Assembly: GCA_002239025.1 (NCBI GenBank)
Contig: MPNM01000006.1
Span: forward strand, 62,001-126,000
Direction: 5' to 3'
DNA: 64,000 nt
DNA from: Chloroflexi bacterium bin125
GTDB taxonomy: Bacteria > Chloroflexota > Dehalococcoidia > Bin125
This document shows positions 3,603-60,856 of the stretch, piece after piece; the first letter of the stretch is position 1, and each line of letters begins with the position of its first letter. The notes under the pieces were generated by a model. It ran no database searches. It was not told the DNA's origin and saw nothing but the letters and a program-made list of their open reading frames with translations. A program made the translations under genes and the position numbers.

Positions 3603-3661
3603 CGCAGCGAACTCTAGGCCCACCCGCTAGACAATCAACCGCCCTCATGCGGGAGCATGCT

Positions 3662-26848: not shown

Positions 26849-26962
26849 GTGTTCGCCTTCTGGCAACGCCGTTCTAGCGACTCGCGTGCGCAGGTTGATC
26901 GGCGGCGCTGGCCGCGAGATCGTAAGTTAAGCCCCCCCCCCCCCGAGTTACGAACCACATAA
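26849..26962 (+). CDS. N-terminal reading frame of the giant protein, out of phase in this sequence
   Basis: A short frame from GTG at 26849 (GAGGGAAA about 10 bp upstream) gives MFAFWQRRSSDSRAQVDRRR, then WPRDRKLS and a proline run encoded by the C tract. With the 13 C residues present it ends at TAA 26960-26962 after 37 residues. If the tract had 12 or 15 C it would continue without a stop through SYEPHNAHPQPLPVRRRAAQ, LVVTLAILLIAALAGAQPAF and into the giant protein. The basic N-terminus plus hydrophobic core is a complete signal peptide, so this is most likely the true start of the gene at 27042, caught in the OFF state, or an assembly slip. Confidence 0.7.
   Translation: MFAFWQRRSSDSRAQVDRRRWPRDRKLSPPPPELRTT
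26932..26944 (+). repeat. poly-C tract (13 C), candidate phase-variation switch
   Basis: Thirteen consecutive C lie inside the 5' coding part of the giant FN3 gene. The distance from GTG 26849 to the downstream frame (27042) is 193 bases, one more than a multiple of three; losing one C (or gaining two) restores a continuous frame. Homopolymer C or G tracts of this length slip readily during replication and are the standard basis of on/off surface-protein switching in other bacteria. Confidence 0.75.
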
Positions 26963-27041
26963 CGCACATCCGCAACCGCTCCCTGTCCGACGCCGGGCCG
27001 CCCAACTTGTCGTCACCCTTGCGATCCTGCTGATCGCGGCA

Positions 27042-30000
27042 TTGGCCGGCGCGCAGCCCGCGTTTGGCCAGGACGAACCGCAGCCCCCTGCCGCGCCCGG
27101 CGGATTGCACGTCTCCACCGAGATCGGCTCACTTGATGTCGATGTCGACTGGGACGACGTGGACGACGCCACGCGCTACGTGGTCCGCTGGCGGACAGCG
27201 GAACCGGGCGGGAAGCTCAACAAGGGCGAAGAGGTCTCGGTCTCCAGGGCGGAAATCACGGTCGCGGGCACCGGCGCCTGGGTCGTCCGGGTGCAGGCCT
27301 GTAACGACGCGGGCTGCGGAACGCCCAGCGCCGAGAAGTTCGAGGTCGAACCGGCGCCCGAGCCGGAATCGACGCCTGAGCCGGAGTCCGAGCCTGAGCC
27401 TGTTGCAGACACTGAGAACGCGCAGGCGCAGACCGAGCTGACGGTCTCCGTCCGCGCCAGCGCGACCGCTCCCTTCGCCGGCGAGCAAGTCCGCTTCAGC
27501 GCCGACATCGACGGCGCGCCCGAGGGCGAACAACCGACGTATCAATGGGAGTTGAGCTACGGCGGCGACCTCTGGTTCCCCAGCGGCAGCGACCCGACCT
27601 TCTCCTACCTGCCGCACCAACCCGAGACGGCCAGCGTGCGGGTCAGCGTGCGCTATGCCTCAGGGGTGTCGGCCAGGTCGGCGCCGCTGAGCGTGACCTG
27701 GCGGGTGTTCGAGCCCAAACCGCAACCGCCGACCGCGGAGGGCGCCAGGGGAGCGGTAGAGCAGGTCTCGGTCACGATCCGCCACGACGAGACCGTGCCC
27801 AGACCGTTCCAACCGGGCAAGCTGGTGGCGCTGGTGAGCAATCTGCCCGACGGCGAACAGCCGCGCTACCGCTGGGAGATGAACCTGGGCGGCGACTGGT
27901 GGGTCGTCGGCAGCGAGCGCGCGTTCCCCTGGAGCGCCACCCTGAAAGAGACGGTCCGGTTCCGGGTGACGGTCTTCATTGGATCGGACCAAGCCGTCAC
28001 CTCTGACGAGCTAGCACTCGACGGGACGGCAGGCAAGGCCACCCGGGACGTGAACGCGGCGGCGACATCCGTGGCCCTGATCGGAAACAGCGGGCAGACG
28101 TCCTTCGGGAACCCGCAGCTCACCTCCGATCGAGCTCAGGCGTTCACGACGGGCAGCCACAGCACGGGCTACAAGCTGACCAGCGTGCAGATCGACTTCA
28201 AGACGAATGCGGGGGCGGCATACGCGTCCGACGTGAAGATCATGAACGACGGCGGTGCTGGACCGGGCAGCACCACGCTGGGCACGCTGACCGATCCGGC
28301 GTCGTTGGTCGCGGGGCTCAATGAGTTCACGGGAGACGTCGACCTGGCCGCCAGCACGACCTATTACGTCGTCATTGACTCGTCTGTTGCCGACTTCGAC
28401 ACAATATTGGACGGAACATCATCGAATGACGAGGATTCGGGCGGCGCGGCCGGTTGGAGCATCGGGGATGACGGACATTCCCGGGGTGCGACCAGCACCG
28501 GCGCATGGTCCTCGAACGCAAATTCGTTGAAGATCATCGTCAACGGTTATGAGAAACAGGCGCCATCGGTAAGCAACACGGGCCAGACCTCCGTTGCGTC
28601 ACGGTCACTCGCGAACAATCTTGCCCAGGCGTTCACGACCGGGGACCATGCGAAGGGTTACACGCTCACCGCGCTCGGGTGGCGACTCTCGTCCGTCGGG
28701 ACAGCAGAGCCGAGCCATACCGTCAAGATCTGCCCTCAGAGCGGCACTGAGCCGTCCACTTCCTGCCTGGGCACGTTGGAGAACCCACTCTCTCTGACGG
28801 TCGGAACGAACCGCTTCACGGCAGCGGGCGGCGGCATAAGGCTCGACGCAAACACCACGTACTTCATGGTCCACGAACTCGTCACGGCAGGAACCGGGTC
28901 CTATGCCGCTGCGCGGACGAACTCCGACGACGAAGACTCGGGCGCGGCCTCCGGGTGGAGCATCGGCAACGACTTCCTGGTCGATGTCAGCGGCACGTGG
29001 CACCCCCTCACAAGTCCATTGCAGATCTACATCGAGAGCGATCCGAACATCGCGCCCGCCGTGGCCAGCGCCGAGATCGACGGCACCAAGCTGGTGCTCA
29101 CCTTCGACGCGGATCTCGACACCGCTTCGGGCACGGCCGCGGGCGCGTTCACGATCAAAGCCGACGGGACCGCGCAGACGGCCACCGCGATCACGATCGC
29201 CGACAGGACGGTCACGCTCACGGTGCCGACGGTCACCCCGGGCCAGACCGTCACCGTCAGCTACACCAAACCCGCCTCGAGCCCGCTCAAGGGCGCGGAC
29301 GACTCGGAGGTGGATGGGTTCACCGATCAGGCGGTGACCAACAACACCTTGTCGATACGGCTGGTCCAAAACACCTCTCAAGCGGACACAGTTAATGGAC
29401 CGCTCGACGACGATCGGGCGCAATCGTTCACGACGGGCAGCAAGAGTTTGGGCTACCGGCTGACCAGCGTGCAGCTCGGCGTCGACGTGGCAGGGTCGCC
29501 GAGCTATACCGCGACGATCGTGCGCGACACCGGCGCCGGACCGGGCAACCTCGCGGTGGCCACGCTGGCGAAGCCGTCTTCGTTGACCGTGGGGTATGAG
29601 AACGAGTTCACGGGCGAGGTCGACTTGCTCCCCAGCACGACCTACTTCTTCAAGGTCGACATGTCAGCGAGCGCCCTCGCCGTGGAGCTGAAGCTAGCGC
29701 TCGTGAACGGCGAAGTCGGCGAGCCCGGCTGGAGCATCGGCAACGACCATCACGAACGACTTTGGAGCAGCAACGGCGCCTGGAGTGCCGTATTTCAGTC
29801 GTTGAAGATCCAGGTCAACGGCTATGCGAAGGCGCCCGCCCTGGACAAAGCGGAGATCGACGGCGCCGAGCTGGTGCTCACCTACGACGGGAATCTCGAC
29901 ACCGCTTCGGCCACGGCCCCGGGCGCGTTCACGATCAGCGTGGGCGGCGGGGCCGCCCAGGCGGCCACCGCGATCACGATCGCCGGCAAGACGGTCACCC

Positions 30001-33000
30001 TCACGGTGCCGGCCGTGACCGACCAGCAGACGGTGACCGTCACCTACACCAAACCCGACGACAACCCGCTCAAGGGCAGCAACGCGGAGGCGGTGGCCGG
30101 CTTCACCGATCGGCCGGTGACGAACAACCCGTCAATCACGGCGCGTGCCCTGATCGGAAACGGCCTGCAGCCAGGCGCCGCCGGCTTATTCCTTGACGGC
30201 GATCGAGCCCAGGCGTTCACCACGGGCCCCAACAGCGATGGCTACAAGCTGACCAGCATCCAGCTTGGATTCGGTACAGCAGGGTCGCCGACCGATTACG
30301 CGGTGAAGATCATGAACGACGGAGGTTCTGGGCCGGGCACCACCAAGTTGGCCGAATTGGTCGGCCCGACGTCGCTTACCGTGGGGCTCAACGAGTTCAA
30401 GGCCTCTGGCACAGGAATCGATCTGGCCGCCAACACGACGTACTACATCCTTGTGGACCTGGGCGCGAGCGACAGCACGTTCACCCATACGACAACGACA
30501 TCCAAAAGCGAGGACACGGGCGGCGCGAACGGCTGGAGTATTGCGAACAGTTACTACAAGCGAAATGTCAACAACAGCGGCTCGTGGACTGAGTTCATCA
30601 CAAGAATACTGAAGTTCGTCGTCAACGGCCATCCGAAGCTTCCGGCAACCTCAGCGCTGATCGGGAACAACTCGCAGGGGGACAACTCTGAGTTCGGTTT
30701 CGACGCGGATCGGGCCCAGCCGTTCACGACGGGCACCAACAGCACGGGCTACCGGCTGAAGAACGTGCAGCTCGGCGTCAAGACGGCGGGCTCGCCGACC
30801 AATTACAAGGTGAAGGTCATGTCGGACAGCGGTTCGGGGCCGGGCGCCGAGTTGGCCACGCTGGAGAACCCGTCGTCTTTGACCGTGGGGCTCAACAGTT
30901 TCACCGGCGATGTCGACCTGACCCCCAACACGACGTACTACATCGTCGTGGACCAGACCGATATCAGCACTGCGAAGTGGAAGCGCACGGCGTCGGATGA
31001 TGAGGACTCGGGCGGTGCGGCCGGCTGGAGCATGGGGGACAGGTTCTGGACCCGAAGCTATGGCTCGGCCGGCGCATGGCGCGAGGCGGTGACCTCAGAC
31101 ATCTTGAAGGTCGTCGTCAACGGCTATGCGAAGCCGACGTCGTCCACGGCGACGGCCGACGCGGGCGAGGACCAGACGGTGCAGACCGGCGACCCGGTGA
31201 CCCTGGACGGCAGCGGCTCGGCCACCACCAAGGCGGGCGCCACCCTGACCTACACCTGGACCCAGACCAGCGGCCCGGCGGTGACGTTGAGCGACGCCAC
31301 CGCTGCGAGGCCGACCTTCACCGCGCCCACATACCGGGCGGATTACGTGTTCTCGCTGGTCGTCGACGACGGCGACGGCATCAGCATGGCGGACACAGTG
31401 ATGGTCGCGGTGCGGCCGCCGATCAACCCGGCCACCGCGCCCTGTCAGAGTCCCGACGAAGGCGCCGCGGTCGACGCCACAGTGATCTCAACTCCCACCA
31501 CCACCGCCGCCGCCGTCACCTGGGGCGCGACGACCACCGGCGGCGCCGGCACGGCCGACCTGTACTTCTGCTCGCCCGACGGAACCCGGGAGCTGGTCGG
31601 ATCCGCAATCGCTGCCGGGACCACCCGGACCAAGTCCGGACTTGAGAGCGGCACGAAGTACTGGGTCGGGGCGCTCAAGACCACGACCAGCGACGGCTCG
31701 GTCTCCTGGTCGGGCTGGACGGCCGCGACCACCACCGGTAGCGCCTCGATCGTGGCGGTGCAGATCGCCTCGACGCCGCGCTGGGACGCCGACGAGGACG
31801 GGGAGCCGGAGACCTACGGGCGGGGCGACACGATCCAGATCGATGTGACCTACAGCCAGGACGTCACCGTCACGGGCGCGCTCGACAAGGTTCGCGTGCG
31901 CCTCGATGTGGGCACTGACGACTCGGATTTGTCCAACAGCCAGGAAGTGGCCAAGGCCGCGAGCCACAGCGGAACCAGGCTGCGTTTCGAGTACACCGTC
32001 AAGACGAACGATGTGGACTCCGACGGTGTCTGGGTGCAGACCCAGAACGCGATGAGCGACAAGATCATCTTCTTGGCCGGCGGCGCGACCCTCAAGAACG
32101 GCGCCAACAACGCCAAGCTGACCAAGAGCGGGCTGCCGACCAGCGGCGACCCGAAGCACAAGGTCGATCACCAGCACTTCGCGACCGTTCCGGCGTTCCC
32201 CAACGCGACGGAGACCCTGACGATCGACGAGAACAGCGCCGAGGGCGTCACCGTCGGCACGGTGACGGCGACCGACGCCGACGGCGACACGCTCTACTAC
32301 AGCCTGGACACCACCACCGGCGACCATGCCCGCTTCACGGTCGGGCAGACGGGCGCCGACGCGGGCACGATCAAGGTCGGCCCCGGGCAGAACTTCGACT
32401 TCGAGACGCCGCCGAACAGCTACACGGTGACCGTCAACGTCACCGACCGCAAGGATTCCGACGGCAACGCCGAGACGCCTCCGTACACCATCGATGACAC
32501 GGTCGTGGTCACGATCAATGTGATCAACGTCGAGGAGCCGCCCGACGCGCCGACCGTCACCGCGGTCACGGGGGCCTCGACGACCAGCGTCACCGTCACC
32601 TGGACGGCGCCGAGCGACACCGGCGCGAAGGCGATCACCGACTACGACCTGCGCTACTACGAGGGCAGCGCCGAGCCCACCGACGCGGCCGACTGGGTCG
32701 AGGAGGGCGAGACCAACGGCCACACCCACACCGGCACCGCGACCACCGCGACGATCACCGGGCTCGCCGAGGACACCACCTACCAGGTCCAGGTGCGTGC
32801 CGAGGGCGACGGCGAGGGCGCCTGGTCGACCACCGGCTCGGGCGCGACGCTGACCCCGCCGGCGGCGCCTCGCGGCCTCTGGGCCCAGGCGTCCACCACG
32901 TTCTTGATCCTGCAGTGGTCCAACCCGGGCGATTCGACGATCATCAGGTACCAGACCCGCCACAGCACCGACGGCGGCACGACCTGGACCGGCTGGACCA

Positions 33001-36000
33001 ACCTCCACGGCAGCAACGCGTCCACCGTCTGGACCAACCTGTCTAACTTGACCAGCGGCACCTACTACGACGTCGAGTTGCGTACGGTGCACAGTATCGG
33101 CGGGAGCTGGAGCGCCTCGACCGGCGGCACGCCCTCAACCTCGGGAATATTGGGGCCCTCCAACCTGCGCGCCACCGCCGCGGACGGCCAGGTCACCCTG
33201 AGATGGACCCGGAACTCTTCTGCGACCAGGCAGCGGGTTCGCCAGCGGGTGGCCGGCGGGAGTTGGTCCGATACGTTGCTCGGCGGGGGCGCCGGCACGC
33301 ACACCGCGACGGGTCTGACCAACGGCACGACCTACCGCTTCGAGGTACAGACCGGACAAACCAACTCATGGGACAAGTCGAGTACCATCGACGTCACTCC
33401 GACAGCGCGGGCCGTTGCGCCGGGCAACTTCACCGCCCTGCCCGGCGACCGCTCCATCTCGTTGAGCTGGGACAATCCGGGTGACGCGGGGATCACCGCG
33501 TACCAGATCCGGGTCAGCGACGACGGCGGCGCCACCTGGGATCCGGACTGGGCCGACATCACCGGCAGCGACGCGAACACGACCATGCACAGCCTGTCGA
33601 GCCTGACCAACGGCACGACCTACACGATCGAGGTGCGCGCGTCGCGGGGCATGATTCACGGCGCGGTCAGCTCCGCGACCGCCACTCCCAACCTGCCCCC
33701 GCCCGCTCCCAGCGGTCTCAGTTCAACCGCTGGCGACGGGCTAGTCGACCTGAGCTGGACCGATCCGGGTGACTCAAGCATCACCAAATACCAGACCCGC
33801 CACAAGGCAGGGTCCGGCGCCTTCAACGCGTGGGCCGACATCGCCAGCAGCGGCGCGACCACGACCTCGCATCGGGTGACCGGATTGACCAACGACACGA
33901 GCTACACGATCGAGGTCAGAGCGGTCCGTAGCGGCCCGCTGTACGGCGCGTCGTCCAGCACCACCGCCATCCCGAGGCCGACCGTTCCTGCGGCGCCGGC
34001 CAGTTTCACCGCGACCCCCGGCGACGGCCGGGTCGATCTGGCCTGGACCGATCCCAGCAACAGCCAGATCACCGCATACCAGTACCGCTACAAGGCGGGC
34101 ACTGGGAGCTGGAACCCCAACTGGACCGACATCTCCGGCAGCGGCGCGACCACCACCATGTACACGGTGATGGGCCTGACCAACGACACCACCTACACCT
34201 TCGAGGTGCGCGCCAAGGCCGGGACCACCATCGTCAGCGATGCCAGCAGCGCCACCGCGACGCCCCGGCCTACGGCTCCGCCGGCGCCGGCCAGTTTCGC
34301 AGCGACCGCCGGTGACGGGCGGGTGACGTTGAACTGGACCGACCCGAGCGACACTCAGATCAGCAGGTACCGGTACCGCCAGAGCACCGACGGCGGAATG
34401 AACTGGTCGTCGTGGATGGTGATCTCCGGCAGCGGCGCCGCCACGACCATGCACACGGTCACCAGTTTGACAAATGACACCGACTACTCCTTCGAGCTGC
34501 AGGCCCGCCGGGGCACGGCCACGTGGGGTGCGTCCGGCAGCGCCACCGCCACGCCGCGTCCGGCGGCTCCGTCGGCGCCGGCCAACCTCAGCGCCGATGT
34601 CGGCGACAAACAGATCACGCTGCGCTGGAACAACCCCAACGACAACCGGATCACCGAGTACCGGTACCGCCAAAGCACCGACGACGGCGTGAACTGGTCC
34701 AACTGGACCGACATGGGGGCCGGTGCGGCCACCGTCTCGTACACAGTGACCAGTTTGACCAACGACCAGGAGTACAAGTTCGAGGTGGAGGCCCGCCGCG
34801 GGACGCAGACGTACGGCTCCGCCAGCAGCGTGACGCAGACGCCCCGCCCGCCGGCGCCGCCCGCGCCCGCCGGTCTGACCGCCGATCCCGGCAACACAAC
34901 GGTCACGCTCGACTGGACCGACCCCTCCGACACGCTGATCAGCGTCTACCAGTACCGCCAGAGCACCGACGGCGGCGCAACCTGGAACCCGGACTGGGGC
35001 GACATCTCTGGCAGCGACAAGGACACCATCACCCACGCGTTGACCGGGCTGACCAACGACACGACCTACACGTTCGAGGTACGCTCGCGCCGGGGCACGG
35101 CAACGACGGGTCCCGCGAGCCGTGTGACCGTCACGCCGAAGGCGCCGCCGCCCGCGCCGCGCGGCCTCTGGGCCCGGGGCCTGGACGGGGAAGTCGAGCT
35201 TCGCTGGTCCAACCCGGGCGATTCGACGATCACCAAGTACCAACTCCGCCAGAGCACCGACGACGGAGCCACCTGGAACCCCGACTGGACCGACATCCCC
35301 GACAGCGGCGCGAACACCACCATGCGCGACGTGGTCAGCCTGACCAACACCACCTACTACGACTTCGAGTTGCGGGCGGTGCGCGGCACGAGCAACGCGG
35401 GCACGTCCGCCGCGATCGGCGTCGAGCCCAGCAACAGCGGACTATCGGGGCCCAACAACCTGCGCGCCACGGCCAGCGATACCCAGGTCACCCTGGCATG
35501 GGATCAGGCCACGCTCGCGACCCGGTACCGGGTCCGGCACCGGGCCAGCACCACTACCACTTGGGAGAGCTGGACGACTATCTCGAGTGGGACCACCACC
35601 ACGCACACCCAGACGGGTCTGACCAACGGCACGACCTACCGCTTCGAGGTGCAGACCGGACAATCCGGTTCATGGGACCGGCGCAGCGCGGTCGAGGCGA
35701 CGCCGACGGAGCGGGCCGCGGCGCCGCTGAACTTCACTGCGTTGCCGGGCAACCGCACGATCATGTTGAGCTGGACCGACCCGAACGATTCGAACATCAC
35801 CAAGTACGAGTACCGCTACAAGGCGGGCAGCGGGAACTGGAACCCGGACTGGACCGTCATCACCGGCGCCGGCGCCACCACGACCATGCACACGCTGTCG
35901 AACCTGACCAACGGCACGACCTATACGGTCGAGTTGCGCGCCTCGCGGGGCACGGTGGTCGGCGCGGTCAGCTCCACCACCGCCACCCCGAACCTGCCGC

Positions 36001-39000
36001 CGGGCCGGCCGAGCGGTCTCAGCGCCACCCCGGGCGACACGAAGGTCGACCTGAGCTGGACTAATCCGTCGGACTCGAGCATCGTCAACTACCAGTACCG
36101 TGTCAGCGACGACAGCGGCATGACCTGGTCTCCGGACTGGACCGACACCGGCACGGCCACCACGACCACGTTGTCGGTGACCGGGCTGAAAAACGACACG
36201 ACCTACACGATCGAACTTCGGGCGGCCCGCAGCGGCCGGCTCTACGGTCCGGCGGCCAGCAGGACCGCCACCCCCAGGCCGACGCCGCCGCTGGCGCCGA
36301 CCAGTTTCACCGCGACCGCCGGCGACCGTGAGGTCGAGTTGGCTTGGGCCGATCCCAGCGACACCCTGATCACCAAGTACCAGTACCGCCAGAAGGTGGG
36401 CACCGGGAACTGGGCCAACTGGACCGACATCTCCGGCGCTGCCACGACCATGCACACGGTGACCGGTTTGACCAACGACACCACCTACTCTTTCCAGGTG
36501 CGGGCCCGGCGCGGCACGGTCACCCACGGCCCAGCCAGCAGCAGCGCCTCCGCGACGCCGCGGCCGACGGCTCCGCCGGCGCCCAGCGGGCTGACAGCCA
36601 CGGCCGGCGATGGCAAGGTCGACTTGAGCTGGACCGATCCGAGCGACAGTCTGATCAGCAAGTACCGGTACCGGGTCAGCGACGACGGCGGCATGACCTG
36701 GGGCAACTGGACGGTGATCTCCACCAGCAGCGCGGCCACCACCATGCACACGGTGACCGGCCTGACCAACGACACCCCCTACAGTTTCGAGCTGCAGGCC
36801 CGCCGCGGCACGGTCACCGTCGGTCCGGCCGCCAGCGCGACGGCGACGCCGCGACCGGCGGCGCCGCCGGCGCCAACCAACCTCCGCGCCGAGGTCGGTG
36901 ACGGTCAGATCACGCTGCGCTGGAACAATCCCAACGACAGCCGGATCAGCGTGTACTCGCACCGCGAGAAAGAGGTCGGCGGCAACTGGAGTCCGAACTG
37001 GACCGATATCCCGATGAGCAACGCCAACACGACTTCCTTCGTGAGCACCGGTCTGACAAACGACGACACCTACCACTTCGAGGTGCGCGCCCGCCGCGGA
37101 ACGGTCACGTACGGCGCGGAAAGCAGCGTGACCGGGACGCCGCGGCCGGACCCGCCGCCGGCACCGAAGGGGCTGAGCGCCGATCCGGGCAACGCGCAGG
37201 TCACGCTCAACTGGACCGACCCCATGGATCCGGACATCCGCGTCTACGAGATCCGCCAGAAGGCCGGCAACGCCGCCTGGACGGCGTGGGCTGACATCTC
37301 CGGGAGCGACAAGGACACCATCACCCACATCGTGTCGAGTCTGGACAACGACACGAGGTACCGGTTCGAGATACGCGCCGTCCGCGGCGCAGTGACGAGC
37401 GGGGACGCGGCCGGCGTGACCGTCACGCCGAAGGCGCCGCCACCGGCGCCGCGCAACCTGCGGGCCACGCCCGCAGCCGGTCAGATCGTCGTGGACTGGA
37501 CCAACCCGAACGACAGCACGATTACGAAGTACGAGTTCCGCCAGAGCACCGACGGCGGAACCAACTGGAACCCTGACTGGGGCGCCATCTCCGGCAGCGG
37601 GTCGGCTACCACGTCGTTGACGCGTACTGGTCTGACCGACGGCACGTACCACGACATCGAGGTGCGAGCGGTGCGCGGCTCAGCCAATGCGGGCACGGCC
37701 GCTGCGATCGGTGCCGAGCCGTTGAGCACGGGTCCCGCGGCTCCCGCCGCGTTGCGAGCCACCGCGGCTGACGGTCAGGTCACCCTCTCCTGGAGCGAGG
37801 GCGGATCGACGGTGGACAGGTACCGCGTCCGCAATCGGCCGAGCGGCGGGTCGTGGTCAGGTTGGACGGTCAAGTCCGGCCGGACCACCACCACGCACAC
37901 CGAGATGGGCTTGACCAACGGCACGGCCGTCCGTTTCGAGGTGGCGGCAGGCACCTCCGCACCTGCGTTCGGACCCGCCAGCAGTATCGAGGCGACGCCG
38001 ACCGAGCGACCGGCCGCTCCGGTCAATCTCGTGCCCTACGCCCGCCCGGCCTACGTCTATCTGACCTGGGACGATCCCAACGACCCGCTAATCACCGAGT
38101 ACCAGTTCCGCCGGAGCACTGACGGCGGAAGCACCTGGAGTCCGAACTGGACCAAGGTCGCCGGCAGCGGCGCGACCACGACCTGGTTCAACTTGGCTAC
38201 CTTGCTCAACGGCACGACCTACACCATCGAGGTCCGAGCGGTCCGGGGCGCCAGGCTCGGCGTCGCTGGCCGGGTGACGGCCACGCCGCGCACACCGCCC
38301 TCGACGCCGGCGGGCTTCACGGCCACATCAGGCGATAACGAGGTAGTGCTGGGCTGGACCAACCCTGGTGACGCCTCGATCAGCAAGTACCAGTCCCGCC
38401 ACCAGGCCGACGGCGAGACCAACTGGACGGACTGGACAGACATCGACGGCAACAGTGCCGCGCACACCGTGACCGGCCTGACCAACGACACGACCTACAC
38501 GTTCCAGCTGCGAGCGGTCAGGGATCGGGACAACGGAGGCTTGGCAGCCAGCGCCACGGCCACGCCGAAGCCGCCGCCGCCGGCCGCGGTCACCGGCCTC
38601 ATGCCCACCACCGGCGCCACCCCCCGCGACGGCGGGATTGCGCTGAGCTGGACCAACCCCGGCGACACGCGGATCAGCAGGTACGAGTACCGGGTGCAGC
38701 GGGACGGCCAGAGCGCCTGGAGGCCGGATTGGACTGAGGTCCCCGGCAGCAGCGATTCCACGGCCTCGTACATCGTCACCGGGTTGCTGAACGACACGAC
38801 CTATACGGTCGAAGTGCGAGCGGTGCGGGGAGCGGACACGGCGGGTGATGCGGACAGTGTGACCATCAAGACGCCCAAGCCTGCGCCCAGGGGTCTCATC
38901 GCCAGGGCGGACAACGGGCAAGTCCACTTGAGCTGGACCGATCCCGGCGACGATGAGATCACCACGTACCAGATCCGCCAGAGCACCAACGATGGCAGCA

Positions 39001-41249
39001 CCTGGACGACCTGGGCTGACATCACCGGCAGCGACAAAGACACCGTCGCCCACACGGTCTCCGGCCTGGCCAATGGCACGGCGGTCACCTTCGAAATCCG
39101 GGCGCACGTGCTCGGTACTCCACCGCAGGAGGGAGTGGCGGCCCAGATCGAGTCGATGCCGATCGACACATCCTCCGTTCCGGCCGCCCCCGAGGAGGCG
39201 CGGGCCACAGCCGGCAACTCCCAGGTGACGTTGATATGGGCCAATCCGCAGGACGAGACGATCACCAAGTACCAGTTCCGCCATCGCCTGATAGCCGGGA
39301 CGCTCGAGGGGGCGATCGGCAACGCGGAGAACTGGGATGATATCCCCGACAGCGACGCAAACACGACCTCGTACACCGTGACCGAACTCGAGAACGGCAA
39401 CGTCTATCAGTTTGATGTACGCGCCGTGTACGACACGGCAGACTTCGGCGCTGTGACCAGCATGATCGCCACGCCCAAGCGCCCCGTGTCGCAGTCCAGC
39501 TCTGGCGGCGGTGGCGGAGGCGGTGGCGGCGGAGGCGCGCGCGCGCAGCCTTCGGAGGAGGAATTCGACTGGAACGTGACCCGCGACATCGAAGCGCTTG
39601 ACGGAGAGAACGACTTCCCCACGGGTCTCTGGTCCGATGGGGTGATGCTCTGGGTCGTTGAGAACGCAACGAGCGGCCCAGACCGGGTCTTCGCCTACGC
39701 ACTGGAGGACGGCGCCCGTCAAGCGGACCTGGAGTTCGAGTTCGAGCGCCGCAACCGCTTCGCCCACGGCATCTGGTCCGACGGCGAAGTCGTCTGGATC
39801 GCCGACGCGGGCCAGGACAAGCTGTTCGCGTACCGGCTCGACTCAGGGGAGCGGCTGGAAGAGCGGGACTACACGCTCAACGAGCGCAACCGCGACCCGC
39901 GCGGGATCTGGTCGGACGGCGAGGTCATCTACGTGCTCGACTCTGGCAAGGACGCGCTGTTCGCCTACGACGTGCAGAGCGGCGAACTGGACGCCGAGTA
40001 TCCGCTCGACCGGCTCAACCGCAGCCCGCGCGGGATCTGGTCGGATGGAGTCACGATCTGGGTCTCCGATGACGGGGCCAAACGGCTCTTGGCCTATCGA
40101 ATCGTTGAGGTCGAGGTCGAAGGCGAGGAGCGCTCACAGGTCCTACAGCGCCACGAAGCCGAAGAGTTCACGTTCCGCTCGCTGCTGAGTTCTGGCAACA
40201 GCGACCCGCGCGGGATCTGGTCGGATGGCGATGTGATGTACGTCGCAGACGACCGTGATGACCGCGTCTACAGCTACAACATGCCCGACGCGATCGACGC
40301 TCGCCTCGCTTCGCTCAGTCTTGGCGACTTCGACCTCGCAGAGTTCTCTCCGCGGCAGCTGAGCTACCAGGTCTCCATCGAGGGGGACATCACACAGACG
40401 ACCGTCGTGGCCGCGCCGGTCTACGAGGCCGCAACAGTCGAAATCGCCCCCGGCGACGCGGACGGCGATCCAGAGAACGGCCACCAGGTCGCGATCGAGG
40501 ATGGGCTGGCGATCAATGTCACGGTGACCTCCGAGGACGACGACCGCACGCAGGTTTACACGGTCGTCTTCGAGCGCGCCAACCGAGCCCCGCTGGGCAG
40601 CGAGATTCCAGCGCTGGAGCTGACGGCCAAGGGTGATCCAGTCGAGTTCAGCCTCAGCGACTACTTCAGCGACCCGGACGGCGATCCGCTCAGCTACACG
40701 CTGGGCGAGCCAACCGACGCCAGTGTGGTCAGCCTGGTCGAATCAGACGGCGTGCTCAGCGTCACACCGCTTGAAGCCGGCGCCACCTCGTTCGCACTGA
40801 GCGCCTCAGACGGCGAGTTGCGTAGTGAACCCGTCGAAGTCGAGATCAGCGTCGAAGCGGTTCCCGTCGTTGCCCAGGCGCCTGAGGTCCGAATCGGCGC
40901 GAGGCGAGTCGTCAATGGGCGAGTCGAGTTCGGCCTCGGAGTGCGAGCTGCGGACGGCGCCTGGCAACCACTGATCTTGCCGCCGCGGCGCTTCCTGCCG
41001 GCGGACGCTGAGCTGGACCGCTGGCTGGTCAGCACCCCCATCGAGGTCGGCCCTGACGATGCGCCACGGACGCTGCGCATCGCCGCTCGACAACTGGCCA
41101 GCGGCAGCGTCGAGTTCGCTCTGCTCGTGCGGCTCGAAGGGGGCGGCTGGAGCGCTCGGCTGCTGCCATTCGCCCGCTTCCTCCATAGCGACGCTGCCCT
41201 GGACCACTGGCTCTACAGCACCCCACTCAGCAGCGCCGAACCGCGGTAA
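27042..41249 (+). CDS. giant fibronectin type III surface protein (about 4,735 residues, true start upstream)
   Basis: Extracellular adhesin-like protein. Layout by position: signal-peptide end (AQPAFG-Q), FN3 (27090-27340), Pro/Glu linker, two Ig-like domains (27430-28020); five ~160-residue repeats with SDRAQAFTTG...GYKLTSVQ (28065-31135), interleaved with two SwmB-like domains (29041-29360, 29824-30130); a PKD-like domain (31140-31420); a cadherin domain (32190-32540); about 24 FN3 domains (32540-39480); an 11-Gly linker (about 39503-39540); a propeller-like region of RGIWSDG repeats (39565-40290); a cadherin-like beta-sandwich and Ig-like domain; and two copies of a C-terminal ~60-residue unit. 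The listed start is a TTG without ribosome site, after the signal core; the functional start is probably GTG 26849, separated by the poly-C tract. No LPXTG motif, so anchoring is unclear. Confidence 0.88.
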   Translation: MAGAQPAFGQDEPQPPAAPGGLHVSTEIGSLDVDVDWDDVDDATRYVVRWRTAEPGGKLNKGEEVSVSRAEITVAGTGAWVVRVQACNDAGCGTPSAEKFEVEPAPEPESTPEPESEPEPVADTENAQAQTELTVSVRASATAPFAGEQVRFSADIDGAPEGEQPTYQWELSYGGDLWFPSGSDPTFSYLPHQPETASVRVSVRYASGVSARSAPLSVTWRVFEPKPQPPTAEGARGAVEQVSVTIRHDETVPRPFQPGKLVALVSNLPDGEQPRYRWEMNLGGDWWVVGSERAFPWSATLKETVRFRVTVFIGSDQAVTSDELALDGTAGKATRDVNAAATSVALIGNSGQTSFGNPQLTSDRAQAFTTGSHSTGYKLTSVQIDFKTNAGAAYASDVKIMNDGGAGPGSTTLGTLTDPASLVAGLNEFTGDVDLAASTTYYVVIDSSVADFDTILDGTSSNDEDSGGAAGWSIGDDGHSRGATSTGAWSSNANSLKIIVNGYEKQAPSVSNTGQTSVASRSLANNLAQAFTTGDHAKGYTLTALGWRLSSVGTAEPSHTVKICPQSGTEPSTSCLGTLENPLSLTVGTNRFTAAGGGIRLDANTTYFMVHELVTAGTGSYAAARTNSDDEDSGAASGWSIGNDFLVDVSGTWHPLTSPLQIYIESDPNIAPAVASAEIDGTKLVLTFDADLDTASGTAAGAFTIKADGTAQTATAITIADRTVTLTVPTVTPGQTVTVSYTKPASSPLKGADDSEVDGFTDQAVTNNTLSIRLVQNTSQADTVNGPLDDDRAQSFTTGSKSLGYRLTSVQLGVDVAGSPSYTATIVRDTGAGPGNLAVATLAKPSSLTVGYENEFTGEVDLLPSTTYFFKVDMSASALAVELKLALVNGEVGEPGWSIGNDHHERLWSSNGAWSAVFQSLKIQVNGYAKAPALDKAEIDGAELVLTYDGNLDTASATAPGAFTISVGGGAAQAATAITIAGKTVTLTVPAVTDQQTVTVTYTKPDDNPLKGSNAEAVAGFTDRPVTNNPSITARALIGNGLQPGAAGLFLDGDRAQAFTTGPNSDGYKLTSIQLGFGTAGSPTDYAVKIMNDGGSGPGTTKLAELVGPTSLTVGLNEFKASGTGIDLAANTTYYILVDLGASDSTFTHTTTTSKSEDTGGANGWSIANSYYKRNVNNSGSWTEFITRILKFVVNGHPKLPATSALIGNNSQGDNSEFGFDADRAQPFTTGTNSTGYRLKNVQLGVKTAGSPTNYKVKVMSDSGSGPGAELATLENPSSLTVGLNSFTGDVDLTPNTTYYIVVDQTDISTAKWKRTASDDEDSGGAAGWSMGDRFWTRSYGSAGAWREAVTSDILKVVVNGYAKPTSSTATADAGEDQTVQTGDPVTLDGSGSATTKAGATLTYTWTQTSGPAVTLSDATAARPTFTAPTYRADYVFSLVVDDGDGISMADTVMVAVRPPINPATAPCQSPDEGAAVDATVISTPTTTAAAVTWGATTTGGAGTADLYFCSPDGTRELVGSAIAAGTTRTKSGLESGTKYWVGALKTTTSDGSVSWSGWTAATTTGSASIVAVQIASTPRWDADEDGEPETYGRGDTIQIDVTYSQDVTVTGALDKVRVRLDVGTDDSDLSNSQEVAKAASHSGTRLRFEYTVKTNDVDSDGVWVQTQNAMSDKIIFLAGGATLKNGANNAKLTKSGLPTSGDPKHKVDHQHFATVPAFPNATETLTIDENSAEGVTVGTVTATDADGDTLYYSLDTTTGDHARFTVGQTGADAGTIKVGPGQNFDFETPPNSYTVTVNVTDRKDSDGNAETPPYTIDDTVVVTINVINVEEPPDAPTVTAVTGASTTSVTVTWTAPSDTGAKAITDYDLRYYEGSAEPTDAADWVEEGETNGHTHTGTATTATITGLAEDTTYQVQVRAEGDGEGAWSTTGSGATLTPPAAPRGLWAQASTTFLILQWSNPGDSTIIRYQTRHSTDGGTTWTGWTNLHGSNASTVWTNLSNLTSGTYYDVELRTVHSIGGSWSASTGGTPSTSGILGPSNLRATAADGQVTLRWTRNSSATRQRVRQRVAGGSWSDTLLGGGAGTHTATGLTNGTTYRFEVQTGQTNSWDKSSTIDVTPTARAVAPGNFTALPGDRSISLSWDNPGDAGITAYQIRVSDDGGATWDPDWADITGSDANTTMHSLSSLTNGTTYTIEVRASRGMIHGAVSSATATPNLPPPAPSGLSSTAGDGLVDLSWTDPGDSSITKYQTRHKAGSGAFNAWADIASSGATTTSHRVTGLTNDTSYTIEVRAVRSGPLYGASSSTTAIPRPTVPAAPASFTATPGDGRVDLAWTDPSNSQITAYQYRYKAGTGSWNPNWTDISGSGATTTMYTVMGLTNDTTYTFEVRAKAGTTIVSDASSATATPRPTAPPAPASFAATAGDGRVTLNWTDPSDTQISRYRYRQSTDGGMNWSSWMVISGSGAATTMHTVTSLTNDTDYSFELQARRGTATWGASGSATATPRPAAPSAPANLSADVGDKQITLRWNNPNDNRITEYRYRQSTDDGVNWSNWTDMGAGAATVSYTVTSLTNDQEYKFEVEARRGTQTYGSASSVTQTPRPPAPPAPAGLTADPGNTTVTLDWTDPSDTLISVYQYRQSTDGGATWNPDWGDISGSDKDTITHALTGLTNDTTYTFEVRSRRGTATTGPASRVTVTPKAPPPAPRGLWARGLDGEVELRWSNPGDSTITKYQLRQSTDDGATWNPDWTDIPDSGANTTMRDVVSLTNTTYYDFELRAVRGTSNAGTSAAIGVEPSNSGLSGPNNLRATASDTQVTLAWDQATLATRYRVRHRASTTTTWESWTTISSGTTTTHTQTGLTNGTTYRFEVQTGQSGSWDRRSAVEATPTERAAAPLNFTALPGNRTIMLSWTDPNDSNITKYEYRYKAGSGNWNPDWTVITGAGATTTMHTLSNLTNGTTYTVELRASRGTVVGAVSSTTATPNLPPGRPSGLSATPGDTKVDLSWTNPSDSSIVNYQYRVSDDSGMTWSPDWTDTGTATTTTLSVTGLKNDTTYTIELRAARSGRLYGPAASRTATPRPTPPLAPTSFTATAGDREVELAWADPSDTLITKYQYRQKVGTGNWANWTDISGAATTMHTVTGLTNDTTYSFQVRARRGTVTHGPASSSASATPRPTAPPAPSGLTATAGDGKVDLSWTDPSDSLISKYRYRVSDDGGMTWGNWTVISTSSAATTMHTVTGLTNDTPYSFELQARRGTVTVGPAASATATPRPAAPPAPTNLRAEVGDGQITLRWNNPNDSRISVYSHREKEVGGNWSPNWTDIPMSNANTTSFVSTGLTNDDTYHFEVRARRGTVTYGAESSVTGTPRPDPPPAPKGLSADPGNAQVTLNWTDPMDPDIRVYEIRQKAGNAAWTAWADISGSDKDTITHIVSSLDNDTRYRFEIRAVRGAVTSGDAAGVTVTPKAPPPAPRNLRATPAAGQIVVDWTNPNDSTITKYEFRQSTDGGTNWNPDWGAISGSGSATTSLTRTGLTDGTYHDIEVRAVRGSANAGTAAAIGAEPLSTGPAAPAALRATAADGQVTLSWSEGGSTVDRYRVRNRPSGGSWSGWTVKSGRTTTTHTEMGLTNGTAVRFEVAAGTSAPAFGPASSIEATPTERPAAPVNLVPYARPAYVYLTWDDPNDPLITEYQFRRSTDGGSTWSPNWTKVAGSGATTTWFNLATLLNGTTYTIEVRAVRGARLGVAGRVTATPRTPPSTPAGFTATSGDNEVVLGWTNPGDASISKYQSRHQADGETNWTDWTDIDGNSAAHTVTGLTNDTTYTFQLRAVRDRDNGGLAASATATPKPPPPAAVTGLMPTTGATPRDGGIALSWTNPGDTRISRYEYRVQRDGQSAWRPDWTEVPGSSDSTASYIVTGLLNDTTYTVEVRAVRGADTAGDADSVTIKTPKPAPRGLIARADNGQVHLSWTDPGDDEITTYQIRQSTNDGSTWTTWADITGSDKDTVAHTVSGLANGTAVTFEIRAHVLGTPPQEGVAAQIESMPIDTSSVPAAPEEARATAGNSQVTLIWANPQDETITKYQFRHRLIAGTLEGAIGNAENWDDIPDSDANTTSYTVTELENGNVYQFDVRAVYDTADFGAVTSMIATPKRPVSQSSSGGGGGGGGGGGARAQPSEEEFDWNVTRDIEALDGENDFPTGLWSDGVMLWVVENATSGPDRVFAYALEDGARQADLEFEFERRNRFAHGIWSDGEVVWIADAGQDKLFAYRLDSGERLEERDYTLNERNRDPRGIWSDGEVIYVLDSGKDALFAYDVQSGELDAEYPLDRLNRSPRGIWSDGVTIWVSDDGAKRLLAYRIVEVEVEGEERSQVLQRHEAEEFTFRSLLSSGNSDPRGIWSDGDVMYVADDRDDRVYSYNMPDAIDARLASLSLGDFDLAEFSPRQLSYQVSIEGDITQTTVVAAPVYEAATVEIAPGDADGDPENGHQVAIEDGLAINVTVTSEDDDRTQVYTVVFERANRAPLGSEIPALELTAKGDPVEFSLSDYFSDPDGDPLSYTLGEPTDASVVSLVESDGVLSVTPLEAGATSFALSASDGELRSEPVEVEISVEAVPVVAQAPEVRIGARRVVNGRVEFGLGVRAADGAWQPLILPPRRFLPADAELDRWLVSTPIEVGPDDAPRTLRIAARQLASGSVEFALLVRLEGGGWSARLLPFARFLHSDAALDHWLYSTPLSSAEPR
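32862..39480 (+). repeat. higher-order repeat: eight-FN3 block present nearly three times
   Basis: Within the giant gene the FN3 domains repeat in blocks of eight. Block starts marked by APRGLWAQA (about 32865), APRGLWARG (about 35154) and APRNLRATP (about 37446) are spaced 2289-2292 bp. Inside each block the order is the same: the GP-NLRATA domain is second, the domain with NFTALPG (or NLVPYA) third, then those ending GLTNDTTY..., and so on. The third block is shortened. This shows segmental duplication of a 763-residue unit rather than random domain growth. Confidence 0.8.
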
Positions 41250-41292
41250 CGATCTACTCCAGCAGCGCCGAACCGCGGTAACGATCTACTCC
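41229..41292 (+). repeat. 32-bp perfect tandem repeat spanning the giant gene's stop codon
   Basis: AGCAGCGCCGAACCGCGGTA plus the next 12 bases (ACGATCTACTCC) occurs twice back to back (41229-41260, 41261-41292). The first copy contains the TAA stop (41247-41249) of the giant gene. The duplication therefore added a second stop-bearing copy without changing the protein. Confidence 0.9.
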
Positions 41293-41376
41293 AGCCGCGC
41301 GGCTAGGCGGGGAGCATCGTTTGAGGCGTTCCGGCCAACTTGCTTAAACGCAGAAGAGACCGCACAGACGCGGAAG

Positions 41377-41427: not shown

Positions 41428-43788
41428 CTAGCCTCCTGCGGCTATGAGCCCTGCCTCCTGCTCGCGCTCCAGCGCCCAGTCGAACAGCGAGGGCCCCGAA
41501 GGTCGCGGGTTGCGTCCGCGAGGCTTCGGTCGCTCCGGTTGGTCGGCGAGGAACTCGGTCCAGCTGAACAAGGACTGCTGTTGTTCCTGTTGGCCGTGAT
41601 TGTTCGCGCAGGGGACCAGTTCGACCACTGGCGCAACTTCCCCGTCGCTCGGCAGAGCCGAAACCAGCGTCTCCGGTTCAGGAGCGGGCAGCTGCCAATC
41701 GGCGTCGACTAGCAGTTGCTCGGCCTGGGCGGCGACCTGCTGGGCCTGGGTGAAGATGTCCTCGACCGGTGCGTCGTCGGTCTCGCCCGAGACCAGCTTG
41801 CGGGCCAGGGCCATCATCAGGTCGTCGCCGGTGTCGCCGTAGGCGGCCAGCCCGTCCTCGGGCAGGTCGCCCTCGACCGCGAGCGACGATTGCAGCTTCT
41901 GCGCGACCAACTTAAGCGCGTCGGCCTGCAGCGTCGAGCGGTAGGCCATGAACACGACCTTGACCGGCTGGGTCTGGCCGATCCGCCAGCTGCGGCGCGA
42001 GGCCTGACGCATGGTGTAGACCGAGTAGTCGGTCTCGAACCAGCAGATCGTCGGAAAGGCGATCAGGTCGAGCCCGGTCTGCACCAGCCTGGGGTGACAG
42101 ATGAGGACGTCGATCCCCTCTTTGACCCGCTTCGCGACCCAGGCCTCCCGCTGCTTGGGCTCCACCCGGTCGGCCTTCATCACCGCTGTGCGGAACCCGT
42201 GCCGGCTGAGCAGCGTCTCCAGCCGGCCGGTGATGTCGCGCGTGCCGGTGTGGGTGGCGTAGACCAGGACCCGCCGTCCGGCCAGGCGCTCTCGCGCGAC
42301 CAGGTCGATCAGCTGCTGCTCCTTGGGATAGACGCGCCCCTCGTCGAGCGGCGGCAGTTGCACGATCAGGTCGCCGGTGTCCGGGTCGAACACCGACTCG
42401 CCCCGAGTGCAGCCCTCGGGATAGGCGAGCAGCGCCTGCAGGTAGGTCGAGAGCAGCCGCGCCGAACCGCGCTCGATCGCCTGTAGCAGCGCCCGCTTGA
42501 GGTCGGTAGCGAGGATCCGGTAGGCGGAAGCCTGGGAGAGACCGTGCAGGCCCTCCTCGGTGTCCATGCTCGCGACCTGGATCTGCTCCTCGTAGGCGGG
42601 CAGTCCCGAAGCGACATCGGCCAGCCTGAGGAAGAGCGAGTGGCCGATGATGTGGAACAGCGCCGCCGGCGCCATCCCCGGCCGCTCTTTGACCTGCTTG
42701 CGGTAGTTGCGCCGGCGCGAGACGGTACCGTCCTCGGTCGGGTCGTCGTCGCGGTCGTTCCGCACCCGCTGCTCGAGGAAGCCGTAGCGCTCGACCCACT
42801 TGTGCTCCTCTGAGCGTCCGAACTCGGAGCGGATCTCAGGTGAGAACCGGTAGAGCAGGTGGAACAGTGTCGAGGCGTAGCCGCCCATCAGGGTGCCCGA
42901 CAGCGCCAGCGACTTGCCGCAGGCGTCGGCCAGGATGCCGGCCGAGACGCCCTGGGCCGAACCACGGCCTTTGTGCTCGTGCACCTCGTCCACGATCAAG
43001 AGGTCGAAGTAGCCGCGCATGTGCTGCTTGACGTAGTCGGCCAGGGGGTACTTGCGCGGGCCCTGCCCAGGGGTGCGTCGAGCCATCAGACCGGCGTTGT
43101 AGTCGGTCGTCACGGTCTGTACCGGTCGCGCCTCCGCCGTCCACAGGGGCGTCCCGCACTTCGGGCAGTTGTGACGCTTCTTGTCCAACTGCCTGTGCGG
43201 GACGGGGACGCCTTCCGCGTCCACGATCTGCGCGGTGCAGTCGGGGCAGGCCGGGGTCATCACGAACTGGCCGGCCTCTTCGTCGCGGACGGGCTTGCCG
43301 TCCTCATCTTTGAGCCGGCGCATCCAGTAGGCGGGGCGGAAGCGGTGGCCCAGCTTGGCCCGCGAGTGCGACATGACCACGTACTGCGGGCCGGAGCCCT
43401 CCTGGCGCCGCAGCTGCTCCAGGTCGGTGATCGAGTCGGCGATGCCGGTGCGGACCAGCGGGATCGTGTCCTCGATTTCCCGCCGCCACTTGCCGACCAG
43501 GTGCGGCGGGCAGAGCACGAGCACACGGCGGAAGCCGGCCAGCTGCGCGGCGGCGATGGCGATGAATGTCTTGCCCACGCCCATCTCGCCGACCACGGTG
43601 GTGCCGCGCTGCTCGGTCAGGCTCAGCGCGGCGCCGCGGATCGCGGTCTCCTGGGCGCCCATCGGCCGGCGCTTGAGCTGCGGCATCGAGCGGTCGTCTG
43701 CCGCCGGGCGGTACTTGGGTGGATAACTGTGGACGATCCGTTTGGTGATCGCCTCGCGGTAGGTGTCGATGAACTCTAAGAGGTTCAC
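41428..43788 (-). CDS. SNF2/DEAD-type helicase
   Basis: A 786-residue superfamily 2 helicase. Walker A GEMGVGKT at residues 67-74, motif Ia LVLCPPHLVGKW, a DEVH box (about 267-270), motif III ALSGTLMGG, and the C-terminal lobe ending in the SNF2-type motif VI RRSWRIGQTQPVKV. Between the motor motifs sits a zinc-binding insert (CPDC ... CPKCG). The GTG at 43788 is taken because GAGGAG precedes it. Such helicases occur with DNA methyltransferases on phages and conjugative elements, helping replication or evading host defence; the exact role is unknown. The small gene upstream ends 2 bp before its start. Confidence 0.83.
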   Translation of the reverse strand: MNLLEFIDTYREAITKRIVHSYPPKYRPAADDRSMPQLKRRPMGAQETAIRGAALSLTEQRGTTVVGEMGVGKTFIAIAAAQLAGFRRVLVLCPPHLVGKWRREIEDTIPLVRTGIADSITDLEQLRRQEGSGPQYVVMSHSRAKLGHRFRPAYWMRRLKDEDGKPVRDEEAGQFVMTPACPDCTAQIVDAEGVPVPHRQLDKKRHNCPKCGTPLWTAEARPVQTVTTDYNAGLMARRTPGQGPRKYPLADYVKQHMRGYFDLLIVDEVHEHKGRGSAQGVSAGILADACGKSLALSGTLMGGYASTLFHLLYRFSPEIRSEFGRSEEHKWVERYGFLEQRVRNDRDDDPTEDGTVSRRRNYRKQVKERPGMAPAALFHIIGHSLFLRLADVASGLPAYEEQIQVASMDTEEGLHGLSQASAYRILATDLKRALLQAIERGSARLLSTYLQALLAYPEGCTRGESVFDPDTGDLIVQLPPLDEGRVYPKEQQLIDLVARERLAGRRVLVYATHTGTRDITGRLETLLSRHGFRTAVMKADRVEPKQREAWVAKRVKEGIDVLICHPRLVQTGLDLIAFPTICWFETDYSVYTMRQASRRSWRIGQTQPVKVVFMAYRSTLQADALKLVAQKLQSSLAVEGDLPEDGLAAYGDTGDDLMMALARKLVSGETDDAPVEDIFTQAQQVAAQAEQLLVDADWQLPAPEPETLVSALPSDGEVAPVVELVPCANNHGQQEQQQSLFSWTEFLADQPERPKPRGRNPRPSGPSLFDWALEREQEAGLIAAGG

Positions 43789-43790
43789 GG

Positions 43791-43976
43791 TTACTCCTCG
43801 ATGTGGGCCCGTGCGTCCTGCACGCACTCGGGCAGTCGTTCGAACTGGTCACGGTGCAGACCGCAGCGGCACCACCAGCTGTAGCTGCGGCCGGCGGTCT
43901 GGTTGCCGTCCTGGTCGATGGCGACGAGTTCCTCGAAGAAAATCTCGCAGCCCCGGTCGTTGCTCCACGGGTTCAT
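43791..43976 (-). CDS. small hypothetical protein upstream of the helicase
   Basis: A 61-residue protein with three or four cysteines (RGCEIFF, WWCRCGLH, LPECVQ) that could bind one zinc. No family recognised. Its TAA is 2 bp before the helicase GTG, so the two are translationally linked. The start has only a weak GGAAC upstream. Confidence 0.6.
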   Translation of the reverse strand: MNPWSNDRGCEIFFEELVAIDQDGNQTAGRSYSWWCRCGLHRDQFERLPECVQDARAHIEE

Positions 43977-44803: not shown

Positions 44804-45832
44804 CTACGCCTCGATCCGTTCGATCCGGCCGCTGTCGAGGTCGAGCGTGACCACGCTGGTCTGCAGCTGCTCGCGGTAGACGTCGTGCGTCTCGCCCTCC
44901 TCGACCAGGACCATCTCCTTGGTCGTGCGTCCCTTGACCAGGACGCGCGACTCAGGCGTCTCCAGTTCGAGGTTGTCGAGGAATCCGGCCGCGACCAGCA
45001 TGGCCAGGTGTCCCTTGCGCAGAGGCATCAAGGGGCGCGTCGAGCGGTCCGTCGGCGGCCAGAAGGCGTCCGTGATCTCGTCCTGGGTCCAGAGCCCGCG
45101 CTTACGCGCCTCGGCGACCGCTTTCGAGAAGTCGATCACCCGGGTCGTGAACATCACCGGACCCGGCGCTGACATGCCGACGTCGTACTCCGGCCGCAGG
45201 TCGTGGCGCAGCGGTTCCAGGTCGCCCGAGCTCGCGAGCATGTCGGCCATCGCCCGTGCGTCGGGCCGCGGTTGCGGCTTGCGCACGCCGAGTACCACGA
45301 CCTGGTCGAACTGCTCTCGCTCCGGCTCAGGGAAGGCCCAGACTCGGACTCGCCGGTAGTTGGTCGTCAGGAACCGCGCCGAGGTCGCGATCTGCGAGCG
45401 CGGGATGATGTAGACCAGCACCCCGTCCGGCTCCAGGTAGCGGGAGCAGTGGGTCAGGAACGCGTGCTCGACCCGCTTGTCCTCGCGGTCGTGGTCGTAC
45501 GGGGGATTGAGCCAGAGCAGGTTGAACGCGCGGTTGGCGATCGAGCAGCGGAACAGGTCGCTGGAGAGCGCGTGGTCGAGCCGCTCGGCCGCCTCCTGCG
45601 CGCGCTCCTGGTGCAGTTCCACCCCGTAGGTCTCGATCGGGACGTGGCGGTTCATCGACCCCGCCAGCTGCGACAGGGCGTCGCCCGGACCGCAGCAGGG
45701 GTCGAGCAAGCGGACGATGTCGTCCCGGTTGCGGCCGTAGCGGATCGGCGCCATCAGCAGTGAGCGGATGTGGTCGACCACGCGCGGCGGCGTCGGGTAG
45801 TAGCCGCCCTTCAGTTGTCCGGCGAGTCTCAT
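44804..45832 (-). CDS. DNA methyltransferase-like protein (DUF6094 type)
   Basis: A 342-residue SAM-dependent methyltransferase. The N-terminus GGYYPTPPRVVDHI resembles adenine methylases; motif I is LLDPCCGPGD (residues 43-51) and motif IV is NPPYD (109-113), the amino-methyltransferase catalytic signature. The C-terminal part could be the target-recognition region. No cognate restriction nuclease is nearby, so it may modify the element's own DNA to avoid host restriction. The ATG at 45832 is taken from the ATGA overlap with the upstream gene and the conserved N-terminus; the long in-frame upstream part is another gene's region. Confidence 0.78.
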   Translation of the reverse strand: MRLAGQLKGGYYPTPPRVVDHIRSLLMAPIRYGRNRDDIVRLLDPCCGPGDALSQLAGSMNRHVPIETYGVELHQERAQEAAERLDHALSSDLFRCSIANRAFNLLWLNPPYDHDREDKRVEHAFLTHCSRYLEPDGVLVYIIPRSQIATSARFLTTNYRRVRVWAFPEPEREQFDQVVVLGVRKPQPRPDARAMADMLASSGDLEPLRHDLRPEYDVGMSAPGPVMFTTRVIDFSKAVAEARKRGLWTQDEITDAFWPPTDRSTRPLMPLRKGHLAMLVAAGFLDNLELETPESRVLVKGRTTKEMVLVEEGETHDVYREQLQTSVVTLDLDSGRIERIEA

Positions 45833-46011
45833 TCGTTGTCTTCCTTTCGTTGGTGGTCGGCCTCGACGAGGCCGATCAGGTGGTCTTCGAGGTCTTCGGC
45901 GATCTGGGCGATCTGCCAGCCGGACTCCTCGGGTTGGAGCCACCAGCGGGCTGTCTCGTCCGGTCCGCGGCGGACGCTGACGATGATCTGGTCGTCCGAG
46001 GGTTCGGTCAT
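45829..46011 (-). CDS. small hypothetical protein
   Basis: A 60-residue acidic protein (IIVSVRRGPDETARWWLQPE, then QIAQIAEDLEDHLIGLVEAD). No family recognised. It overlaps both neighbours by 4 bp (ATGA), which is the main evidence that it is real and co-translated with the methyltransferase. Confidence 0.6.
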   Translation of the reverse strand: MTEPSDDQIIVSVRRGPDETARWWLQPEESGWQIAQIAEDLEDHLIGLVEADHQRKEDNE

Positions 46012-46199
46012 GGGTGCTCCTCCTGGTACTGCTCAAGCAGGTTGAGCAGGTGGTCGTGGATGTCCTCGTGGACGCCCTCCTCGATCTGAGAGCCGTCTTC
46101 TTCGAGGTCGAAGTTGTAGATCGCGGTGATCTCCTCTCCGGCGATGTCGTCCTCTCCGGCCCTCGTCTCGACCGTGACGGTCACGTAGCGGTGACTCAT
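46008..46199 (-). CDS. small hypothetical protein
   Basis: A 63-residue acidic protein (YVTVTVETRAGEDDIAGEEI, then ending LLNLLEQYQEEHP), probably a small alpha/beta fold. Its 4-bp overlaps on both sides and shared acidic character with the next gene (45829-46011) suggest the two arose together. Function unknown. Confidence 0.6.
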   Translation of the reverse strand: MSHRYVTVTVETRAGEDDIAGEEITAIYNFDLEEDGSQIEEGVHEDIHDHLLNLLEQYQEEHP

Positions 46200-60839: not shown

Positions 60840-60856
60840 ACGAAGGAGATGTTCCG

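Follow-up and report, generated by a model that had tools for sequence, protein, structure and literature searches.

Multi-domain block duplication is already known as a way in which repeat proteins are lengthened. For nebulin, the account of Bjorklund et al. (2006, PMC1553488) includes domain repeats that expanded several at a time, in seven-domain units, while the titin A-band is described as containing FnIII/Ig super-repeats (PMC10665226). Among mobile elements, conjugative plasmids encode large Ig-like (Big) proteins of the RSP type, which are described as needed for IncHI transfer (PMC6764697, PMC8730810). In the archaeal cell-wall genomic island of Haloquadratum walsbyi, surface-protein genes are reported to differ between lineages via recombination and mobile elements (PMC4535781).

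The locus described here, in a 64,000-nucleotide stretch of Chloroflexi bacterium bin125 (the window hereafter; contig MPNM01000006.1, positions 62,001 to 126,000), is a bacterial mobile-element case of block duplication. The explanation that fits best, and which we regard as probable, is that a unit of eight FN3 domains was duplicated in tandem within a giant surface protein, itself probably secreted and encoded by an ICE-like element, with length differences between relatives being due to array exchange. In the literature searched on bacterial FN3 super-repeats, FN3 domains of sponge Chloroflexi symbionts, ICE giant adhesins, and giant FN3 proteins of Chloroflexota, no description of the giant protein was found.

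The giant gene and its predicted product

The open frame of the giant gene begins at 26931 on the plus strand, and a signal-peptide-like stretch lies within it at about 26985-27071; counted from the first canonical start (TTG), the ORF spans 27042-41249 and encodes 4735 amino acids. Its N-terminal region (approximately 28040-31080) consists of five choice-of-anchor R domains (NF041539; 373.6 bits against a cut-off of 30, five stretches) and SWM repeats. The FN3 array comprises 24 domains, cut by hand at the conserved B-strand Trp, and the Pfam fn3 model (PF00041) matches the protein in 22 separate stretches with an E-value of 4.5e-164 (533.6 bits against a cut-off of 25). FN3 domain 1 (32541-32855) is divergent and does not belong to the blocks discussed below. 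A GGC-rich tract coding for a poly-Gly linker (39504-39537) forms the seam between the array and a conserved C-terminal module (39549-41246), which contains GIWSDG repeats, a Cadherin-like domain, and a double C-terminal motif, and is common to relatives with other arrays; all of these parts lie on the plus strand. The last 119 residues gave no Pfam match, and no NCBIfam anchor model was found on the giant protein. A 32-nt direct repeat (2.3 copies, 97%) lies across the stop codon of the gene, at 41228-41300.

A long surface protein is suggested by the signal-peptide-like start, the beta-sandwich arrays, and the constant C-terminal module; its array would set the length and the binding surface, and the C-terminal module might have a constant job such as attachment. 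Judged solely by its domain content, the protein could be a long surface stalk or adhesin aiding cell contact.

The double motif (40890-41246) comprises two copies of an approximately 52-residue unit (R-I-x-A-R-R ... EFA ... LP-x-x-RF ... RW). Its AlphaFold2 model has a pLDDT of 93.6; against the PDB set, Foldseek gave no match with an E-value of 0.001 or lower, and a second-look fold comparison gave a best Z of 5.5, a level that is common by the tool's own account. That the motif acts purely as a C-terminal sorting signal was considered and rejected: it ends at most 10 residues from the frame end in only 10 of the 31 loci examined and lies elsewhere in the others.

A run of 13 C occupies the 5' end of the open frame (26932-26944, plus strand). 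It is the only C or G run of at least 8 in the window, and no C or G run over 9 was found in about 200 kb of other sequence from the same genome. With 13 C, as assembled, the signal-peptide-like stretch has no canonical start ahead of it, so the giant protein is a predicted product only; a tract length divisible by three would bring the GTG at 26849-26851 into frame with that stretch. The tract is thus a candidate slippage switch, or else an assembly or start-site oddity.

The eight-domain register of blocks A and B

A higher-order repeat with a period of about 2.29 kb had been proposed for the array in a preliminary description, and the period was confirmed: the start motifs lie at 32865, 35154, and 37446, i.e., 2289 and 2292 bp apart. 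In codon alignments, mean domain identity at lag 8 amounts to 56.1% (amino acids) and 67.8% (nucleotides), compared with 37.4-45.3% and 54.0-60.4%, respectively, at the remaining lags up to 19. The enhanced similarity at about 2290 bp, the absence of which would have spoken against the repeat, is therefore present, with lag 8 above every other lag. The peak at a multi-domain lag, as expected of a higher-order repeat, recurs at third codon positions (65.8% at lag 8 versus 53.6-58.9% at other lags; 72.5% between blocks A and B). Global nucleotide alignments of single domains were set aside in favor of codon alignments, as with cheap gaps they returned 67-85% for all pairs.

Block A (domains 2-9, 32856-35144, plus strand) pairs one-to-one with block B (domains 10-17, 35145-37436, plus strand) at an average identity of 63.0% (amino acids) and 73.4% (nucleotides), and this pairing is the best of all 40,320 (mean 47.1, s.d. 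2.7). The lag-8 partner is the best match for all eight domains of block A; there are seven reciprocal best pairs, each of them at lag 8, and all 16 domains of the two blocks recovered their own position when scored against the other block. The positions have features of their own: position 2 is short, and position 1 has its own linker.

The partial third block

The proposal that domains 2-9, 10-17, and 18-24 align one to one holds for blocks A and B and for domains 18-20, is ambiguous for domain 21, and fails for domains 22-24. Block C, as delimited here, contains domains 18-21 (37437-38588, plus strand), with a clear assignment up to domain 20 (38294). In a maximum-likelihood domain tree, for which the bootstrap had not settled, domains 18, 19, and 20 group with their partners in A and B, each outside the A+B pair (supports 96/95, 100/99, and 91/82). 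With the first four domains of block C in register, the value obtained is reached by 3 of 1680 arrangements. Domain 21 scores highest against position 6, and its best single match is domain 14.

Domains 22-24 (38589-39482, plus strand) agree with the one-to-one order only as well as expected by chance (of 336 arrangements, 72 were equal or better): domain 23 fits position 8, where one-to-one order would need position 6, and domains 22 and 24 have no clear fit to any position. Three complete one-to-one blocks are thus not found; as domains 22-24 are out of register, the array consists of blocks A and B, both complete, and an incomplete block C. That a block of eight domains was duplicated, as put forward in the same description, is accordingly well supported for A and B, and for C it is supported over three to four domains. 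Domain 23 was also considered as a recombinant (N-terminal half like position 1, C-terminal half like position 8); this was rejected as unproven because in the A/B control only 13 of 16 N-terminal and 12 of 16 C-terminal half-domains were placed correctly.

The ICE-like element

As judged from its gene content, the giant gene is on an ICE-like element that covers 20596-63088 and continues in L067, on the same contig beyond the window. The element encodes a large serine recombinase (20596-22263, minus strand), a helicase (41428-43827, minus strand), a DUF6094 methyltransferase (44804-46036, minus strand), a DnaG-like primase (50832-51998, minus strand), a VirB4/TraC-like ATPase of a conjugation system (60836-63088, plus strand), and a coupling protein (L067:137-1699). 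Of the features by which an ICE is recognized, a recombinase, a VirB4-like ATPase, and a coupling protein are present; a relaxase candidate scored below the cut-off (Replic_Relax, 22.4 bits against 25.3). Beyond the window lie genes for a 1417-aa restriction-helicase-methyltransferase-like protein, DndB, a radical SAM protein, and a TGT-like protein, which suggest that the putative element carries DNA-modification cargo. Elsewhere in the window, a TPP riboswitch (3504-3614; 62.6 bits, above the gathering score) and a tRNA-Phe (15424-15499) were observed.

The helicase is multi-copy: four further copies in the same genome (91-95% amino acid identity, one cut by a contig end) point to several related elements in one genome. 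Its use as a single-copy locus marker was rejected, as the genome has five full or partial copies of at least 460 aa. Across the genomes, 18 helicase copies matched over at least 460 aa, and the 3' side was examined for 17 of them (one lies at a contig end), several being short at contig ends. Two further helicase copies in this genome have a large gene nearby: in L108 an Ig-like-repeat gene with Big_9, Big_2, and Cadherin_5, and in L109 a gene with AIR9-type Ig matches in the opposite orientation, followed by a 227-aa gene and a recombinase. The C-terminal module is absent from both. At others of the 17, no large gene of this sort was found or the neighbor was of another kind (e.g., an ABC transporter in L112).

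Arrays and the constant C-terminal module in relatives

A search with the last 119 residues yielded matches in all 15 genus genomes, own included (7-30 matches each; here and below, one genome per species was compared). In four congeners, frames of 2595-3255 aa end in the C-terminal module, and their middles hold cadherin arrays (G003, G014, and G012) or SWM/Big_5 domains (G002), with no FN3 arrays; the G002 protein has one weak single fn3 match. The giant gene of G002 is flanked on one side by the recombinase (88% amino acid identity) and the 227-aa gene (62%), and on the other by the helicase (88%) and the methyltransferase (87%); the gap between helicase and giant gene is about 9.9 kb in G002 versus 178 bp in the window. 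As these flanks are element genes and the helicase is multi-copy, the match is one of an element slot and not of a chromosomal site.

Within the giant gene, DNA similarity to G002 is confined to 39504-41248, from the poly-Gly tract on; the choice-of-anchor and SWM parts at the N-terminus resemble those of G002 at the protein level (33% over 743 columns). The poly-Gly linker directly precedes the C-terminal module in all seven proteins compared, two of which are paralogs in the same genome. With linker and module shared by these proteins and the arrays different, length seems to vary by whole-array exchange. This suggests, as far as sequence comparison can tell, that length differences between relatives stem from the exchange of whole arrays rather than from gain or loss of the 763-residue block. 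In G002 itself, SWM units ending near residues 1190, 1740, and 1846 match those near 2179, 2290, and 2401 at 70-75%; given this order, block duplication may be a habit of these giant genes.

A wider reading, which we consider rather doubtful, is that ICE-like elements of the genus have in common a slot encoding a giant surface protein; its array (24 FN3 domains partly in a register of eight, SWM triads, or other Ig-like domains) would be swapped as a unit ahead of the poly-Gly seam, with an unchanging C-terminal module behind it, and slippage at the 13-C tract may switch expression in this copy. If true, the element would cause variation in its host's surface, in display as well as in identity.

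No comparable FN3 array was found in the 15 genus genomes (seven with any match, own included), where the top match outside the own genome reached 58 bits, nor in 20 genomes of the family and order (nine with a match, own included), nor in a sample of 60 genomes of the class (four with a match, own included). One uncultured Dehalococcoidia genome has a match at 28% identity; the virus and plasmid sets contained nothing close, with no match on viral contigs and one weak match on plasmids. In G015, from another genus of the family, a 1469-aa frame (L050:3754-8160, minus strand) has FN3 pairs about 455 aa apart and is perhaps another higher-order FN3 arrangement.

Order and age of the duplications

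Distances at four-fold-degenerate sites, composition-corrected and used for ordering only, are 0.38 (0.29-0.48) between A and B, 0.70 (0.47-1.02) between B and C (positions 1-4), and 0.72-0.90 at lags 1, 2, 7, and 9 inside A+B. To G002, the corresponding distances are 0.41 for the helicase, 0.58 for the C-terminal module, and 0.65 for the recombinase. As the A-B distance is of between-species size, the duplication of A and B is not recent; its age would be close to, or slightly below, that of the separation from the element copies of G002, provided that synonymous rates are similar, and with the reservation that element genes may move between species. Estimates for A-B were dN 0.30 and dS 0.40 (NG86), and dN 0.25 and dS 1.4 (YN00); third positions have about 90% G+C, so dN/dS allows no conclusion on selection.

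In the proposed sequence of events, single FN3 domains would first have multiplied, after which an eight-domain unit would have been duplicated at least twice, presumably via unequal crossing-over. The older duplication would have given rise to block C on one side and the common forerunner of A and B on the other, and the later one would have parted A from B; block C may since have eroded, with its register lost beyond domain 20 or 21. At three positions the tree gives the order (C,(A,B)), although faster change or conversion in C could also make A and B more alike.

Alternative explanations

The register of eight could conceivably reflect convergence or selection on features of single positions, with a structural repeat at every eighth domain, and the differences in length and linker between positions agree with this. 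The same lag-8 excess is, however, seen at third codon positions, which is not expected from selection on protein features, and this explanation is disfavored as highly improbable. Block duplication being preferred, it may be asked whether homologous recombination continues to change the number of 763-residue blocks from strain to strain. The array does have two complete blocks and part of a third in tandem, with exact repeats of 39, 28, and 26 nt at offsets 2289-2304. Nevertheless, the blocks are only 73% identical, with a divergence between A and B of the size seen between species; 72 exact repeats across the array reach 15 nt, 24 reach 20 nt, and only four reach 25 nt, the longest being 39 nt (offset 2304). 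Repeats so short and few are a poor substrate for frequent homologous recombination of the RecA type. The suggested recombination hot spots hence find no support as a present-day feature, and, no relative with more or fewer FN3 blocks having been found among the genomes searched, we regard ongoing variation in block number as improbable.

A stronger competitor, if still a less probable one than duplication in place, is that the array came whole from another lineage, in which its blocks had already been duplicated, and was inserted ahead of the poly-Gly seam of a choice-of-anchor gene. This would account for the lack of the array in every congener searched, for its position at the site of the SWM or cadherin arrays of relatives, and for the DNA similarity to G002 that starts at the seam (39504). 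Yet no donor was found: four of the 60 class genomes, own included, had any match, one genome matched at 28% identity, plasmids gave one weak match, and viral contigs gave none. Moreover, loss of the array in the other genomes explains the same pattern. Internal tandem duplication of the eight-FN3 unit stays the preferred explanation.

Comparison with described systems

Duplication of whole multi-domain blocks has been described chiefly in eukaryotes; the array is a clear example, with a relative date, from a giant protein of a bacterium. More useful than the repeat is the setting in which it lies: a giant surface gene on a mobile element, with a constant C-terminal module and an array that differs between species. 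This opens a test of whether element-borne surface proteins serve cell contact in transfer or surface variation against phages or partners.

As in nebulin, domain identity peaks at a multi-domain lag, which is read there as multi-domain duplication; in contrast to that kind, described mainly in eukaryotes, the unit here has eight FN3 domains, lies in a bacterial element gene, and has older, more diverged copies (PMC1553488). The titin A-band, like this array, has FN3 domains whose higher-order register goes along with features particular to each position, but the register of titin is described as matching the thick filament, whereas the giant protein is without a known partner of this sort and its third block is out of register (PMC10665226). 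The RSP-type proteins are likewise large Ig-fold proteins on elements with conjugation genes; they differ in having Big instead of FN3 domains and in their enterobacterial hosts, and the likeness is one of description (PMC6764697, PMC8730810). In the Haloquadratum walsbyi island, too, surface-protein genes vary between lineages, as reported for an island within one population, while here one gene slot varies between species (PMC4535781).
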